From: Salinirussus salinus
GTDB taxonomy: Archaea > Halobacteriota > Halobacteria > Halobacteriales > Haloarculaceae
NCBI RefSeq assembly: GCF_009831455.1
Contig: NZ_WOWO01000003.1
Coordinates: 124,001 to 188,000, forward strand
DNA length: 64,000 nt
Reading direction: 5' to 3'
Within the stretch, counting starts at the first letter, position 1. Each line of letters begins with the position of its first letter. Below, in pieces: positions 10,444 to 49,864 of the stretch. The translations under genes and the position numbers were made by a program. Under the pieces are notes generated by a model. The model saw nothing but the letters and a program-made list of their open reading frames with translations. It was not told where the DNA came from and made no database searches.

Positions 10444-12996
10444 ATGGCGACCGGTGCCGAGCGCGACACCGAGACGGTCGACCGCCCGCTCGTGGTCCCC
10501 GGGGCCCTGGAGCGGCGGGCCTACCAGCTCCGGCTGGCCGAGGCCGCCGCCCGCGGCCACACGCTGGTCTGTCTCCCAACGGGGCTGGGGAAGACGGCGG
10601 TGAGCCTGCTCGTGACCGCCAGGCGGCTCCACGAGGCCGGCGGCAAATCGTTGCTGCTCGCCCCCACGAAACCGCTCGTCACCCAGCACGCCGACTTCTA
10701 CCGGGAGGCGCTCGATATTCCTGACGACGACGTGGTGGTGTTCACCGGCGAGGTCAGCCCCGACGACCGGGCAACGCTGTGGGAGGACGCTCAAGTCGTG
10801 GTCGCCACCCCGCAGGTCGTCGAGAACGACCTCGTCGGCAACCGGGTCTCCCTGTCGGCGGTCACCCACTGCACCTTCGACGAGTGTCACCGGGCGACCG
10901 GCGACTACGCCTACAACTACATCGCCGAGCGCTACCACGCCGAGGCCGACGACCCGCTGGTGACGGGGATGAGCGCCTCCCCCGGCGACGACGAGGAGAG
11001 CATCCTCCAGGTCTGTGAGAACCTCGGCCTGGGCAGCGTCGAGGTGATGACCGAGGACGACGCCGACGTCGCGGAGTACACCCACGACACCAGCGTCGAG
11101 TGGGAGCGCGTCGAGTTGCCCGAGACCGTCGAGGAGGTCCGGGACGCGCTCCAGGAAGTCATCCGCGACCGGCTGACCCAGCTCAAGGAACTCGGGGTTA
11201 CCTCCACGACCCAGCCCGACGTCTCCGAGCGGGAGATCCACAAGATCCAGGGCCGGCTCCGTGACCTGATGGACAACGACCAGTCGGAGGGGTACCAGGG
11301 GATGAGCCTCCTGGCGGAGGTCCGCAAACTGCGGACGGCCGTCACCTACGTCGAGACTCAGAGCGTCGAGTCCTTCCGCCAGTACATGGAACGTCAGCGG
11401 GAGGCCGCCCGCTCCTCGGGGGCCTCGAAGGCCGACCAGCGGCTGGTCTCCGAACCCAAGGTCAGGCAGGCAGTCCGGCTGGCCCGGGAGTACGACGACC
11501 TCCACCCGAAGTTCCGCCGGGCGCGGATGAAGATCGCCGAGACGCTGGGCATCCAGGGCGGCGAGCGCGTCATCGTCTTCACCGAATCGAGGGATACCGC
11601 GGAGACGCTGACGGACTTTCTGGGCGAGCACTTCAGCACCGAACGTTTCGTCGGCCAGTCCGATACCGAGGGCAGCGACGGGATGACCCAGACCGAACAA
11701 CAGGACACCCTCGAGCGGTTCCGCGCCGGCGAGTTCGAGGTGCTGGTCTCGACCTCCGTGGCCGAGGAGGGGCTCGACGTCCCCGAGGTCGACCTCGTGC
11801 TCTTCTACGAGCCCGTCCCGACCGCGATCCGCGCCATCCAGCGCAAGGGTCGGACCGGCCGCCAGACCGAGGGCGCGGTGACGGTGCTGCTCGCCGAGGA
11901 CACCCGCGACGAGGCCTACTTCTGGAAGGCTCGAAATGACCAGAAGGAGATGGAACAGGAACTCCGGAATCTCAAGGACGCCGCCGGGACTATCGAGGCC
12001 CGCCTCGAACAGGCCGGGCTGGACACCTACGCGAACGAGGGGACGGATAGCAACGGCGACGGCACCGGCGGTACGGACGCCGACGGCGTGGGGGTGGACG
12101 CCGGCTCCGGCGACGAGACCGCCAGCAGCGATACCAGCGGCGACAGCGCCGGGTCGAGCACTGCCGACGGTGACGACGACGGCCAGGCGGGGCTGGGCGC
12201 GTTCGCCGGCGAGTCGGGCGAGCGAGCGGCGGCTGGCGCGGACGAAACGACGGGCGGCGGCGGTCCCGGCGACGACAGCGACACGGAAACGGGCGACACA
12301 GCAGACGCTGAGGGCGTCGTGGCGGCAGCCGAACCCGACGGGGAGGCGGTCGAGGTCGTCGCCGACCAGCGGGAACTGGACTCGACCATCGCGCGGGACC
12401 TCTCGACCCGGGATGGCGTCGAGACCCGCCTGGAGACGCTGGCGGTCGGGGACTACGTCCTTTCGGACCGGGTGGTCGTCGAGCGCAAGACCGTCGCCGA
12501 CTTCCTGGACACCCTCACGGGCGGGGACCGCTCGCTGTTCGAGCAGGTCGGGGACGCCGCCCGCCACTACGAGCGGCCGGTGGTCGTCATCGAGGGCGAG
12601 GGCCTGTACGGCGAGCGCAACGTCCACCCGAAGGCCATCCACGGGGCGCTGGCATCGCTGGCCGTGGACTTCGGCGCCAGCGTGCTCCGGACGGCCGACG
12701 AGGGCGAGACCGCCGACCTGCTGGAGGTCGTCGCCGAGCGCGAACAGGTCGAAAGCGACCGTGAGGTCTCCGTCCACGGCGAGAAGCAGTCCCGCACCCT
12801 GGCCGAACAGCAGGAGTACGTCGTCGCCGCCATCGCGGAGGTCGGCCCCGTCACCGCGCGGGCGCTGCTCGAGGAGTTCGGCAGCGTCGAGGCGGTCATG
12901 ACCGCCGACGAGGAGGCCCTGCGGGAGGCGGAGGGCGTCGGCGAGGTCACCGCTGAGCGGGTCCGCGAGGTGACCGGCAGCGACTACGAGGGATAG
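10444..12996 (+). CDS. hef: Hef: XPF/FANCM-type helicase-nuclease
   Basis: The product is 850 residues and acts on stalled replication forks and branched DNA. The SF2 helicase part has Walker A PTGLGKT (45-51), a DECH box (146-149), and motif VI (RKGRTGRQ, near 465). An extended acidic, Gly/Ser/Thr/Asp-rich linker (about 530-640) follows. The ERCC4 nuclease motif GD-x6[10 protein letters not shown] has E680, R681, K682 and D686. Tandem helix-hairpin-helix motifs close the C-terminus (about 785-850). A TTAACC box about 30 bases upstream fits a leaderless mRNA. All active residues appear present in both halves. Confidence 0.95.
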
Positions 12997-18042: not shown

Positions 18043-18076
18043 TCCCCCCCCACCCCTTCGTTTCAACTGCAACACC
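18043..18076 (-). repeat. ORB1 (origin recognition box with G-string)
   Basis: Read on the minus strand the element contains GTTGAAACGAAGGGGTGGGG with a further run of G. The core GAAACGAAGGGGT is the canonical archaeal ORB core, and the G-tail is typical of haloarchaeal oriC1. The tail points left, away from the A+T-rich segment. Confidence 0.9.
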
Positions 18077-18365: not shown

Positions 18366-18394
18366 GTTCCACCCGAAACAAAGGGGTGGGGGGG
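18366..18394 (+). repeat. ORB2 (origin recognition box with G-string)
   Basis: The plus strand reads GTTCCACCCGAAACAAAGGG and continues into GTGGGGGGG. It is the inverted partner of ORB1 across the A+T-rich segment. Its G-string points right, so both tails face outward, as in characterised haloarchaeal oriC1 origins. Confidence 0.9.
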
Positions 18395-18824: not shown

Positions 18825-18971
18825 TTTAATAGATTCTCAACCGGGGGTTCTTGTGGTTCAGGTGGACACACGCCGGAACGGGAAACGGGGCCGTCAGGGG
18901 CGTTCTCGGCGATGTGGACCCGTACGCGGGGCGCGAAGCGCCCATCTCCAATCGAAACGAAGGGGTTTCCC
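18825..18971 (+). promoter_or_regulatory. orc1 promoter and ORB3
   Basis: A TTTAAT box (18825-18830) preceded by an A/C-rich stretch would start transcription near 18855, leaving a leader of about 120 bases. Within it, at 18945-18971, lies an ORB: CTCCAATCGAAACGAAGGGG. It ends 5 bases before the orc1 ATG. Orc1 bound here could repress its own expression as well as contribute to the origin; this is inference from position. Confidence 0.7.
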
Positions 18972-18976
18972 ACGAC

Positions 18977-20524
18977 ATGACAGACGCGGACGAACCGCGG
19001 GATGGCACGGGCGACGTCGACAGTGACGACCCCGAATTCACCGGTGTATCGGAAGGAGTTGCCGACTCTGTCGCCTCACCCTCCTCGGAGTCGACTCCAC
19101 CCGAAGCGACGCTCGACGACGTCCTCGCCGAAGAGGAGTCCGCCGACGAGGCCTCCCAGGGGCTGTTCGACGACCTGCTGAGCGGCCAGCCCATCTTCGA
19201 GAACAAGGAGGTACTCCGCCCGTCCTACACCCCCCGGAAGCTCCCCCACCGAGAGGAGCAGATCAACAACATGGCGACGATCCTCGTGACGGCCCTGCGC
19301 GGGGACACGCCCTCGAACATCCTCATCTACGGGAAGACGGGGACCGGAAAGACCGCGAGCGCGAAGTTCGTCTCCGACGAACTCGAGTCCACTTCCGAGA
19401 AGTACGAGGTCCCCTGCGAGGTCGAGTACATCAACTGCGAGGTGACCGACACTCAGTACCGCGTGCTCGCCCAGCTCGCGAACAAGTTCATCGAGAAAAA
19501 CCGCGAGTCCATCGACGACGAACTCGCCGACCTCGAGACGCTTCGCGAGGAGGGCGGCGACCTCGCGGGGTCGAGCTACGACTCCCCCCAAGCTGTCGAG
19601 CAGCGCATCGGGGAACTCGAGGACGCCCGCGACCGCTTCGAGGAGGTGCCGATGACCGGGTGGCCGACCGACCGGGTCTACAGTTCCTTCTTCGACGCGG
19701 TCGACTACCGCGAGCGCGTGGTGGTGATCATGCTCGACGAGATCGACAAACTCGTCGAGAAGTCCGGCGACGACACCCTCTACAACCTCTCCCGGATGAA
19801 CTCCGAACTCGAGAACTCCCGGGTGTCGATCATGGGGATCTCCAACGACCTCAAGTTCACCGACTTCCTCGACCCGCGTGTCAAATCCAGCCTCGGCGAG
19901 GAGGAGATCGTCTTCCCGCCCTACGACGCGAACCAGCTTCGGGACATCCTCGAGCACCGCGCGGAGGAGGCCTTCGAGCCGGACGCGCTCACCGACGACG
20001 TCATTCCGCTGTGTGCGGCCTTCGCCGCCCAGGAACACGGCGACGCCCGCCGGGCGCTCGACCTGCTGCGGACCGCCGGCGAACTCGCCGAGCGCGACCA
20101 GACCGACGGCGTCGAGGAGGCCCACGTCCGCAAGGCCCAGGAGAAGATCGAACTCGACCGGGTGGTCGAGGTCGTCCGGACGCTCCCCCAGCAGTCCAAA
20201 CTGGTGCTTTTCTCGATCATCCTGCTCGAGAAACAGGGGGTCCACAACATCAACACCGGCGAGGTGTACAACATCTACAAGCGGCTCTGCGAGGAGATCG
20301 ACACCGACGTGCTCACCCAGCGCCGGGTGACCGACCTCATCTCCGAGCTCGACATGCTCGGGATCGTCAACGCTGTCGTCGTCTCGAAGGGCCGGTACGG
20401 CCGCACGAAGGAGATCAGCCTCTCGGTACCCCTGGAGGAGACCGAGGCCGTGCTCCTCTCCGACTCCCGGCTCGGCGACATCGAGGACGTCCAGCCGTTC
20501 GTCCAGGCCCGCTTCGACAGCTGA
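18977..20524 (+). CDS. orc1: Orc1/Cdc6 replication initiator
   Basis: The AAA+ initiator binds ORBs and recruits the MCM helicase. The product is 515 residues. After an acidic N-terminal extension (1-70) comes the AAA+ domain. Its Walker A is GKTGTGKT (119-126), Walker B is MLDEID with D254 and E255, and sensor 1 is GISNDL. The C-terminal winged helix (about 415-510) contains LCEEIDTDVLTQRRVTDLIS. I chose the ATG at 18977 (MTDADEP) because the upstream frame would read through ORB3 and has atypical residues. It neighbours oapA and the ORBs, so this is the oriC1-linked initiator (Orc7 type in Halobacterium). Confidence 0.95.
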   Translation: MTDADEPRDGTGDVDSDDPEFTGVSEGVADSVASPSSESTPPEATLDDVLAEEESADEASQGLFDDLLSGQPIFENKEVLRPSYTPRKLPHREEQINNMATILVTALRGDTPSNILIYGKTGTGKTASAKFVSDELESTSEKYEVPCEVEYINCEVTDTQYRVLAQLANKFIEKNRESIDDELADLETLREEGGDLAGSSYDSPQAVEQRIGELEDARDRFEEVPMTGWPTDRVYSSFFDAVDYRERVVVIMLDEIDKLVEKSGDDTLYNLSRMNSELENSRVSIMGISNDLKFTDFLDPRVKSSLGEEEIVFPPYDANQLRDILEHRAEEAFEPDALTDDVIPLCAAFAAQEHGDARRALDLLRTAGELAERDQTDGVEEAHVRKAQEKIELDRVVEVVRTLPQQSKLVLFSIILLEKQGVHNINTGEVYNIYKRLCEEIDTDVLTQRRVTDLISELDMLGIVNAVVVSKGRYGRTKEISLSVPLEETEAVLLSDSRLGDIEDVQPFVQARFDS

Positions 20525-21411: not shown

Positions 21412-22953
21412 GTGTCACTCGAGGGGGCCGCCAGGGTCGTCAGCGAACTCGCCAGCCGGGGGTACAACGCCGACCGCGAGGCCGTCACCTTGCTGGCGAA
21501 CGCTCCGGACCCCGAAACCGCCCTCGAGCGCGCAGTCGAACAGGCCCCCGACGACGCGCTCAAACTCTCGACCGACCACGTCCGCGAGGCGCTCGACGGC
21601 GCGCAGTCCTCCGGTTCTCCGCCCACGCCGGCCGACGCCAGTGAGGGGCCGACGGGCGCTGCCGACCCGGACTCGACCCCCTCCATTTCGACTGGAACCG
21701 ACCGAGAAAACACGCGCGACGGTGGGCGGGGTGTTCCAGTCGAAACGAAGGGGTCGGCGGTCGTCGAGACCAGCGGGGACATCGCGAGTACGGGCACCGG
21801 GGAGTACCGCGACTTCCTCGCGGTCTTCCGGGACCGCTACGAGAAACTCTCCGCGCACCTCCGGAGTCGGGTCAACCACCGGCCCGCGGCCACCATCGCC
21901 GACATGAGTCCCAGTAGCGACGCCGCCCTGGTCGGACTGGTCTCGGACATCCGCTCGACGGCCGGGGGCCACTGGCTGGTCGAACTGGAGGATACCACCG
22001 GTACCTTCCCCTGCCTGGTGATGAGCGACCGCGACTTCGCCGACGACGTCCGGGAACTGCTGTACGACGAGGTCGTCGCCGTCGAGGGGACGCTGGCCGA
22101 CGACGGCGGGATCCTCTTCGTCGACGACCTCTACTTCCCCGATATCCCCCGGACCCACACCCCCTCGACGGCCGACCGCCCGGTCCGGGCCGCGCTGGTC
22201 TCGGACGTCCACGTCGGCAGCCAGGAGTTCCGGGCCGACGCCTGGGAGCGCTTTGCCGACTGGCTCCACACCGAAGAGGCCGAAGACGTCGAGTACCTCC
22301 TCGTCGGGGGGGACATGGTCGAGGGCGTCGGCGTCTACCCCGACCAGGACGAGGAGCTGGACATCGTGGACATCTACGACCAGTACGAGCGGTTCAGCGA
22401 GCACCTCAAGTCGGTGCCCGGCGACCTCGAGGTGGTCATGATCCCCGGCAACCACGACGCCGTCCGGCTGGCCGAGCCCCAGCCGGCCTTCGACGAGGAA
22501 CTCCGCTCTATCATGTCGGCTCACGACGCCGAGATAGCGGCAAACCCTGCCACCGTCACCGTCGAAGGGGTGACCGTGCTGATGTACCACGGCGTCTCGC
22601 TGGACGAGGTGATCGCCGAACTCCCCGACGAGGCCGCGAGCTACGACCGGCCCCACGAGGCGATGTACCAGCTCCTGCGGAAACGCCACGTCGCACCGCA
22701 GTACGGCGGCCGGACCCGCCTGGCCCCGGAGGAGGAGGACCACCTCGTCATCGAGGAGGTGCCCGACGTCTTCCACGCCGGCCACGTCCACAAGCTGGGC
22801 TACGGCAAGTATCACGGCGTGCTCACCGTCAACTCCGCGTGCTGGCAGTCCCAGACCGCTTTCCAGGAGAGCGTCAACCTCGACCCCGACGTCGGCTACG
22901 CCCCCATCGTCGACCTCCAGACGCTCGACCTCACAGTACGGAAGTTCGTCTGA
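21412..22953 (+). CDS. polD1: DNA polymerase D small subunit (DP1)
   Basis: DP1 is the proofreading 3'-5' exonuclease subunit of the archaeal replicative polymerase PolD. The product is 513 residues from a GTG start at 21412, supported by a CTTTT box about 30 bases upstream. The N-terminal helical domain covers about 1-75, and a disordered linker about 75-125. An OB fold follows (about 160-235). The phosphoesterase domain has D265 and H267 (DVHVGS), D301 (GGDMVEG), N347/H348/D349 (GNHD), and H455/H458/H460 (HAGHVH). Metal ligands all appear intact. The linker codons coincide with two ORB-like sequences. Confidence 0.93.
   Translation: MSLEGAARVVSELASRGYNADREAVTLLANAPDPETALERAVEQAPDDALKLSTDHVREALDGAQSSGSPPTPADASEGPTGAADPDSTPSISTGTDRENTRDGGRGVPVETKGSAVVETSGDIASTGTGEYRDFLAVFRDRYEKLSAHLRSRVNHRPAATIADMSPSSDAALVGLVSDIRSTAGGHWLVELEDTTGTFPCLVMSDRDFADDVRELLYDEVVAVEGTLADDGGILFVDDLYFPDIPRTHTPSTADRPVRAALVSDVHVGSQEFRADAWERFADWLHTEEAEDVEYLLVGGDMVEGVGVYPDQDEELDIVDIYDQYERFSEHLKSVPGDLEVVMIPGNHDAVRLAEPQPAFDEELRSIMSAHDAEIAANPATVTVEGVTVLMYHGVSLDEVIAELPDEAASYDRPHEAMYQLLRKRHVAPQYGGRTRLAPEEEDHLVIEEVPDVFHAGHVHKLGYGKYHGVLTVNSACWQSQTAFQESVNLDPDVGYAPIVDLQTLDLTVRKFV
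21676..21699 (-). repeat. ORB-like element inside polD1 (left arm)
   Basis: The minus strand reads GGTTCCAGTCGAAATGGAGG and continues GGGTC. It shares the 13-base core GTTCCAGTCGAAA (21686-21698 on this strand) with the element at 21731. Its G-rich end points left. It covers codons about 89-96 of polD1. Confidence 0.65.
21731..21755 (+). repeat. ORB-like element inside polD1 (right arm)
   Basis: The plus strand reads TTCCAGTCGAAACGAAGGGG, an excellent match to the archaeal ORB core. It is inverted relative to the copy at 21676-21699; the perfect 13-base arms are separated by 34 bases. It encodes VPVETKGS in the disordered linker of DP1. Confidence 0.75.
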
Positions 22954-48531: not shown

Positions 48532-49155
48532 TCACTCGAGCATCGCCGTTCCGGTCGCCGACAGCCGGGAGTGGGGAAACCGGTAGACGCGGGGCTCCTC
48601 TTCGCGCCAGGCCCGCAGATAGACCGCCTCGACCACCGGGTCCCCGGCCGGGTAGCCCTCGTTCGTGGGGTAGCCGGCCACGGTCGTCCCGGCGTCGGGG
48701 ACGACCACCTCGTCGGCCCGCTCGTCGCGAACCCGCTCGACGACCAGCCGGTCGCCGGTCTCGCGGTCCCGGACCACCTCCCCGGGTTCGAGTTCGCAGG
48801 CCGGGCACAGCGGCGGTCCGTCGGCGGGGACGAACCCCGCCTCGCCACAGACGGGACAGGTCCCGCGGCGCCGGCCCGGCGGCGGAACCCGCCCGGTCGT
48901 CACCTCGATCGCGACCCGCCGGCGGTGTTTACAGGTCGCCCCGCGGAGGGTACTGTCGGGGCAGGTACAGCTCCCCGCGTCGGGGTCGACGACGTAGGTC
49001 GCGCCGCTCTCGCTGTCGACGGCGTATCTCCCGTCCGGAAGCGGGCGGACGGCCATGCGCTCGGCCCAGGCGCGGGCGGCACGGTCGGGCATCGCCCGGA
49101 GGTCCGGTGCGAGTGCAGTCTTGCGGTCGGCTGCGGAAGGCTCGATATCGGTCAT
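48532..49155 (-). CDS. SWIM zinc-finger protein with zinc ribbon
   Basis: The product is 207 residues. A SWIM motif CxCx..CxH (SCTCPDSTLRGATCKH) lies at about 62-77. A four-Cys ribbon (CPVC, CPAC) is at about 100-123. A beta-rich domain covers the rest and includes VERVRDERADEVVVPDAGTT. SWIM motifs bind DNA or proteins and occur in recombination factors. An ORB-like sequence lies 33 bases upstream of the start. Function inferred only from motifs. Confidence 0.85.
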   Translation of the reverse strand: MTDIEPSAADRKTALAPDLRAMPDRAARAWAERMAVRPLPDGRYAVDSESGATYVVDPDAGSCTCPDSTLRGATCKHRRRVAIEVTTGRVPPPGRRRGTCPVCGEAGFVPADGPPLCPACELEPGEVVRDRETGDRLVVERVRDERADEVVVPDAGTTVAGYPTNEGYPAGDPVVEAVYLRAWREEEPRVYRFPHSRLSATGTAMLE

Positions 49156-49366
49156 AGCGGTCCGGACACGGCTTGTTTTTCGGGCTGTGTCCAGTCGAAA
49201 CGTAGGTGTTTGGCGGTGATGAGTCTTCGGGCTGGTCGGCTCCGTTCGGCCCGCACGTCTGCTGCCCCGTCGCTCCGTCGTCATCGCTCTGGGGCCATCG
49301 AGTCCGGCGATTTCCCGGAACGGGCGCTTCGAAGCGCTTTTCCTACTCCCTGTGAAAGCCGGCGGC
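49156..49366. promoter_or_regulatory. Intergenic region with ORB-like sequence
   Basis: This 211-base divergent gap separates the SWIM gene and the next rightward gene. At 49188-49212 the plus strand contains TCCAGTCGAAACGTAGGTGT. The 13-base core TCCAGTCGAAACG matches the ORB in polD1 exactly. It could be an Orc1-binding site or a promoter operator. No other feature stands out. Confidence 0.5.
49188..49212 (+). repeat. ORB-like element, isolated
   Basis: The core TCCAGTCGAAACG (49190-49202) is identical to that in polD1, followed by TAGGTGTT where an ORB has AAGGGGT. It is about 31 kb from the origin. The match is strong in the core but weaker in the G-rich half. Confidence 0.5.
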
Positions 49367-49864
49367 ATGGACGTAGACTCGGAGACGGTCAGACAGGTCG
49401 GGCTGTCGGTCGGCGCTGTGCTCCTTTTCATTCTCGCGGTGTCGGCCGCCAGCACCGTCTTCGGGGCCCCTCCAGCGGTCGACCGGGAGGTCAGCGGTCA
49501 GCTGACCGGAACCGCCAACGCCTCCGGTCCCGGGCTCGTTCAGGCGGAGTTCGACGGCGAGTTCGACGGCCCCCTCGCGGGCTCGGTCGACGGCACGCTC
49601 TCCGGGGCGGTCAACGAGACCGGCGACTTCGACGGCCAGCTCTCGGGCAACATCTCCGGGGAAGTGACCGGCGAGATCGAGGGCCAGGTCTCGGGCACAC
49701 TCTCGAACGGGACCTTCGAGGGTCGCTTCGACGGCCGGGTGAACGGAACCGCGAGCACCGTCTCCCTGGGACAGACCGGCGGCGTCCTGATCGTCGCGCT
49801 CATCGCCGGCTTCATCCTCCTGATGGCAGCCGGCGGCGTCTGGCTCTCCCGGCAGGACGACTGA
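49367..49864 (+). CDS. Two-helix protein with Gly-rich repeat ectodomain
   Basis: The product is 165 residues. A hydrophobic helix at about 10-33 and one at about 136-158 enclose an outside segment (about 38-130). That segment has a short repeat of roughly 8-10 residues: DGEFDGPLAGSVDGTLSGAV, then GQLSGNISGEVTGEIEGQVS. It has at least five N-x-S/T sequons. The repeats resemble beta-helix or bactofilin-like stacked strands. I chose ATG 49367 over an in-frame GTG at 49352. Function unknown. Confidence 0.65.
   Translation: MDVDSETVRQVGLSVGAVLLFILAVSAASTVFGAPPAVDREVSGQLTGTANASGPGLVQAEFDGEFDGPLAGSVDGTLSGAVNETGDFDGQLSGNISGEVTGEIEGQVSGTLSNGTFEGRFDGRVNGTASTVSLGQTGGVLIVALIAGFILLMAAGGVWLSRQDD

Follow-up and report, generated by a model that had tools for sequence, protein, structure and literature searches.

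An inverted pair of oriC1-type ORBs kept at the DNA level inside the coding sequence of haloarchaeal polD1

Why would boxes of the type found at a replication origin lie inside the coding sequence of a DNA polymerase gene? The question is raised by a 64-kb stretch of DNA (hereafter the window) from a haloarchaeon whose 3.37-Mb genome is assembled in 4 contigs. The genes of interest, identified with NCBIfam, are ordered as a GTPase (minus strand), oriC1, orc1 (plus), a signal peptidase (minus; a tentative name, the match being under the curated cut-off) and polD1 (plus). The gene orc1 (ATG, 18977..20524, plus strand; NF001625, E 3.1e-198) encodes the Orc1/Cdc6 initiator, the presumed ligand of origin recognition boxes (ORBs), and polD1 (GTG, 21412..22953, plus strand; NF003116, E 5.8e-271) encodes the DNA polymerase II small subunit, i.e., DP1 of DNA polymerase D (PolD). 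An earlier note had reported in polD1 two perfect 13-base inverted arms that continue into G-rich tails and encode part of a disordered linker. This observation holds, and the case for it is stronger than the note had claimed. The arms, GTTCCAGTCGAAA, are confirmed at 21686-21698 (minus strand) and 21733-21745 (plus strand), and are the only exact copies of this sequence in the genome. They belong to two full ORB units, both with outward G-runs: a minus-strand ORB at 21678..21697 (TTCCAGTCGAAATGGAGGGG), where the sense strand encodes PSISTG, and a plus-strand ORB at 21734..21753 (TTCCAGTCGAAACGAAGGGG), which encodes VPVETKG. The two sites start 56 bp apart, around a 36-bp spacer (21698..21733) of constant length and variable sequence. 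The pair encodes approximately residues 89-114 of DP1 and falls within a segment (residues 66-131) with predicted pLDDT below 50, in agreement with the tolerant linker that had been proposed.

The boxes closely resemble those of the origin. Scanning the window with TTCCANNNGAAACRAAGGGG, allowing up to 3 mismatches, gave 6 matches, against a mean of 0.13 in dinucleotide shuffles. With up to 2 mismatches to the ORB consensus, the whole genome has five sites only, all inside 3.7 kb: 18053 (minus), 18367 (plus) and 18946 (plus) at the origin, and 21678 (minus) and 21734 (plus) in polD1. We trained an ORB position matrix exclusively on 164 origin ORBs, all from upstream of orc1 in the loci sampled. 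By this matrix, the polD1 plus box ranks first in the 64 kb, with 35.6 bits, and the minus box scores 25.8 bits; the canonical origin ORBs score 34.2 and 29.8 bits. The polD1 boxes match the oriC1-type core TTCCANNNGAAAC followed by GGGG with 0 and 2 mismatches. At the origin itself, the left ORB (18053..18072, minus strand) and the right ORB (18367..18386, plus strand) carry the extended G-string GGGGTGGGGGG. The third ORB of the region (18946..18965, plus strand; CTCCAATCGAAACGAAGGGG), which adds to the earlier account, is without this extension, and 11 bp separate its end from the orc1 ATG. Similar unextended ORBs recur shortly upstream of orc1 in many species, which suggests that orc1 may be autoregulated. 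A weaker ORB-like site of 10.3 bits (49189-49208 of the window) falls across the 5' part of an ORF on the minus strand (48532-49455) and may be a chance match.

Is the pair an oddity of a single genome? We rejected this possibility after surveying 80 polD1 loci from named haloarchaea, to which we added loci from a sample of 145 genomes across the class Halobacteria; the removal of duplicates left 145 distinct loci. The inverted pair, defined by at most 2 mismatches per box relative to YTCCANNNGAAACNRAGGGG, is present in 106 of them. The other 39 have the plus box alone (19), the minus box alone (3), a weak pair (9) or none (8). Within the sample, box losses and single boxes are concentrated in two families, f2 and f4, and a deep-branching genome (G022, 48% identity) has a perfect minus box alone. 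The start-to-start spacing of the 106 pairs is 56 bp in 98, 53 bp in 6 and 68 bp in 2, and the linker flanks vary in length with standard deviations of 10 and 13 residues. The reading frame of the pair is constant in the 80-genome set, the peptides PSVSTG and PVETKG surrounding 12-13 variable residues. We also considered helix phasing of the boxes: their dyad centres lie ~47 bp apart (44 or 59 bp in variants), giving no consistent face. The ORB sequence, its conservation and its fixed geometry are thereby shown, and the pair, which we take to be old, is kept across most of the class. Ancestry at the level of the phylum was rejected because the pair is absent from the polD1 linkers of the sampled outgroup families. 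In one of these (f18), polD1 has single ORB-like matches located in the catalytic part, which we read as chance resemblance to a conserved peptide.

The earlier note had suspected DNA-level selection in this tolerant linker, and the comparison of synonymous sites among relatives, the check that the note itself had named, strongly supports the idea, since the ORB pair is kept through codon choice. When codons were shuffled among identical amino acids inside each gene (300 shuffles), the mean number of mismatches of the pair was 1.6 in the observed genes and 9.6 in the shuffled ones, and in 80 of 81 genes none of the 300 shuffles matched the observed pair. When the null was free to take its best pair from any part of the gene, 103 of the 145 genes exceed all 5800 null maxima, with spacings of 56 bp (95 genes), 53 bp (6) and 68 bp (2). 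A or T is an uncommon third base over most of polD1 (13% of codons), yet the six third positions where the ORB requires A or T have one of these bases in 78-81 of the 81 genes. Among 500 codon columns ranked by silent conservation, those fixed by the ORB take ranks 1, 2, 3, 6, 7, 9, 10, 14 and 16. The third positions within the boxes that the ORB leaves free (residues 91, 93, 110 and 112) rank 291, 343, 311 and 92, and the spacer codons are unremarkable (ranks 266-493 of 500). Because the ORB-fixed silent sites are conserved and the free sites of the boxes and the spacer are not, selection sees the DNA, independently of the peptide. One could argue that DP1 conserves PSVSTG and PVETKG as linear motifs and that their likeness to ORBs is a by-product, as these peptide motifs are conserved and their spacing is constant. 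However, the signal resides in codon choice rather than in the amino acids, the DNA motif is retained despite changes in the peptide (e.g., AADETEG in L008), the origin ORB is matched on both strands, and silent positions free of ORB demand are not conserved. We find this reading scarcely credible, and a protein motif as the sole cause is ruled out by the synonymous shuffles and the column ranking. In our judgment, the pair is very probably a real Orc1-binding element under selection.

If the boxes bind the initiator, they could be thought to be part of an origin. Inverted, outward ORBs resemble origins, and dormant origins are known in haloarchaea (PMC4595724), which could point to a cryptic one within polD1. 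However, the polD1 boxes end at GGGGTC, without the extended halophile-specific G-string (the G fraction of the tails is 0.29-0.32, vs 0.75-0.81 at origins), an element that oriC1 of Haloarcula hispanica cannot function without (PMC3936714). There is no AT-rich unwinding element between the boxes, since the spacer has only 36 bp and a mean GC of 66%. They also lie inside a gene instead of an intergenic region, and apart from orc1 in a number of genomes. Given the absence of both the extended G-string and the AT-rich element, the pair is probably not an origin, and a dormant one strikes us as very improbable. A different possibility, raised in the earlier note, is that the pair extends the origin; in our reading of it, Orc1 on the polD1 boxes could contact the Orc1 bound at oriC1, by looping or handcuffing, or aid helicase loading. 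The shared ORB type and outward orientation favor it, as does the short distance to the origin (~2.8-5.4 kb) in species where the two are linked.

The rearranged genomes are informative in this respect. The neighborhood count was limited to the 94 loci whose upstream sequence extends for 4 kb or more; orc1 lies upstream of polD1 in 82 of them and not in the other 12. The distance from polD1 to orc1 is 13-19 kb in G037, G038, G118 and G152, 30 kb in G121, 54 kb in G143, 78 and ~94 kb in two Halovenus, and 194 kb in G046; in G132 and G148 the genes are on separate contigs. The pair is whole, or almost so, in G037, G038, G121, G132, G148, G152 and G046, and in the latter ~1.5 Mb separates it from the canonical ORB pair of origin type. 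One of the two boxes is weakened in G118 and in G143 (whose plus site has 2 mismatches), the minus boxes are weaker in the two Halovenus, and one good box is left in G009, G010, G016, G031, G096, G100 and G109. Many of the single-box cases belong to family f4, which often lacks the minus box anyway. Both boxes are degraded in G125, ~222 kb from orc1, a case that better fits a role tied to the proximity of the origin, and they are also degraded in L140 (G043), at 5 kb. As the pair persists in several genomes with polD1 13-194 kb from orc1, it is not simply an extension of the origin, and the cases of Halovenus and G046 argue that something other than adjacency to the origin maintains it. Together with the lack of the G-string needed for oriC1 function (PMC3936714), this disfavors a role in origin architecture, which we regard as improbable; given the mixed record, proximity to the origin may nevertheless contribute. 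As a side observation, the canonical pair with G-strings no longer adjoins orc1 in the genus of G046 and G047 (L242, L243, L069). In G046 an origin-type pair is found ~1.35 Mb away and the near-start ORB alone is still with orc1; an assembly error is possible. In Haladaptatus, where polD1 was relocated, extra perfect ORBs lie ~3.7-4.6 kb downstream of orc1, and one lies right after the end of polD1 (L190, 1529; L191, 4746; L192, 2027).

What could the pair do? The earlier note had suggested that it stores Orc1 or couples Orc1 binding to polD1 expression. We propose a dual-coding regulatory element made of two inverted oriC1-type boxes, with 56-bp spacing, in the linker of polD1, an explanation that as a whole we consider evenly balanced between right and wrong. 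In this view, two Orc1 proteins would sit on the pair of boxes in a defined complex, ~270-340 bp beyond the start codon of polD1, and would act in cis on this gene; the simplest form would be an operator or a roadblock that depends on Orc1. The synthesis of a subunit of the replicative polymerase could thereby be tied to free Orc1, with a sink for Orc1 as a secondary effect. We prefer action in cis on two grounds: it is polD1, and not the origin, that the element accompanies, and its geometry is fixed. That action in cis is the main role has, in our judgment, nearly an even chance. Against it, 39 of the 145 loci have no pair, a degraded pair or a single box; hence the element is not needed in every genome, and a box can survive on its own. 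Control from ~300 bp inside a gene would also be unusual. The main rival is a reservoir: the boxes would hold spare Orc1, duplicate soon after firing because they are near oriC1 in most species, and delay re-initiation. This has a direct precedent in Haloarcula hispanica, where oriC2 is held in check, probably by titration, by a region rich in ORBs that lies downstream of cdc6E (PMC3936714). It is also consistent with orc1 being upstream of polD1 in most loci (the 82 of 94) and with separated genes often being still less than 100 kb apart, and the sporadic ORBs of other genes, such as hef (see below), fit a general sink or regulon better than a role specific to polD1. However, two boxes are few compared with the eleven of oriC2D, and titration requires neither the fixed 56-bp geometry nor one conserved gene, both of which are kept even at 194 kb (G046). 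We see the reservoir as rather unlikely to be the main role.

Comparison with known systems clarifies what is specific to the polD1 pair. It shares with the haloarchaeal oriC1 ORBs, which are intergenic and upstream of orc1/cdc6, the core followed by GGGG and the inverted, outward arrangement, but it lies within a coding gene, has a fixed 56-bp spacing instead of ~200-320 bp, and is devoid of the AT-rich element and of the extended G-string. Like oriC2D of Haloarcula hispanica, proposed to titrate Cdc6E, it consists of ORBs outside the origin proper and downstream of the initiator gene (PMC3936714). The two are also alike in a possible control of initiator availability. Yet oriC2D has eleven oriC2-type ORBs in a 722-bp intergenic region, whereas polD1 has two oriC1-type boxes in coding sequence, conserved class-wide and following the gene when it moves. 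In bacteria, datA titrates DnaA, and clusters of DnaA boxes at other places than the origin adjust initiation or the expression of genes. These are also initiator boxes off the origin, but they involve another initiator and another domain of life, and the polD1 boxes form a pair of fixed geometry in a polymerase gene. Previous ORB predictions were confined to intergenic regions flanking orc/cdc6 genes, both in the analysis of Wu et al. 2012 (PMC3528665) and in that of Haloferax mediterranei (PMC4595724), and the reviews consulted describe ORBs as located at origins or in clusters downstream of them. We found no mention of ORBs within polD1 in the open-access literature that we searched. Surveys of origin boxes restricted to intergenic regions miss selected sites such as these.

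The pair suggests that the initiator of replication and PolD, the enzyme that copies the DNA, are connected in a way that had gone unreported. How archaea limit and coordinate initiation is poorly understood, and this is a precise, conserved cis-element that joins the recognition sequence of the initiator and a polymerase gene. It is also an unusually clean example of overlap between DNA-level and protein-level coding. Synonymous recoding alone could remove the pair, so its role can be tested with the proteins unaltered.

Intragenic ORBs are not restricted to polD1. The linker region of hef, the gene of the Hef nuclease, also carries the ORB motif, with at most 1 mismatch, in 11 of the 35 genes examined, five of which had been preselected for a match. 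These boxes use two reading frames (VPDETKG and SSRNEG), are seldom reproduced by shuffles, and are limited to some lineages: L186 (1602), L187 (1643), L188 (1661), L189 (1669), L193 (1616), L197, L198, L210 and L226. The window's own hef (~10624-12990) has no ORB, its best site showing 4 mismatches. ORBs in disordered linkers may thus be a wider habit of haloarchaea. We can tentatively imagine, with some doubt, a hidden intragenic regulon of Orc1, in which the initiator would directly control the replicative polymerase gene class-wide, through origin boxes of fixed geometry in a disordered linker, and other replication or repair genes such as hef would recruit similar boxes. Finally, in the outgroup family f12 a single ORB-like sequence is found ~300-420 bp after polD1 ends, in each of the six genomes listed (loci L182, at 4082, and L163, L167, L169, L170, L173 and L175); in L182 it falls within the next gene, which is radical-SAM-like, and encodes the peptide DSPVEIVGS.
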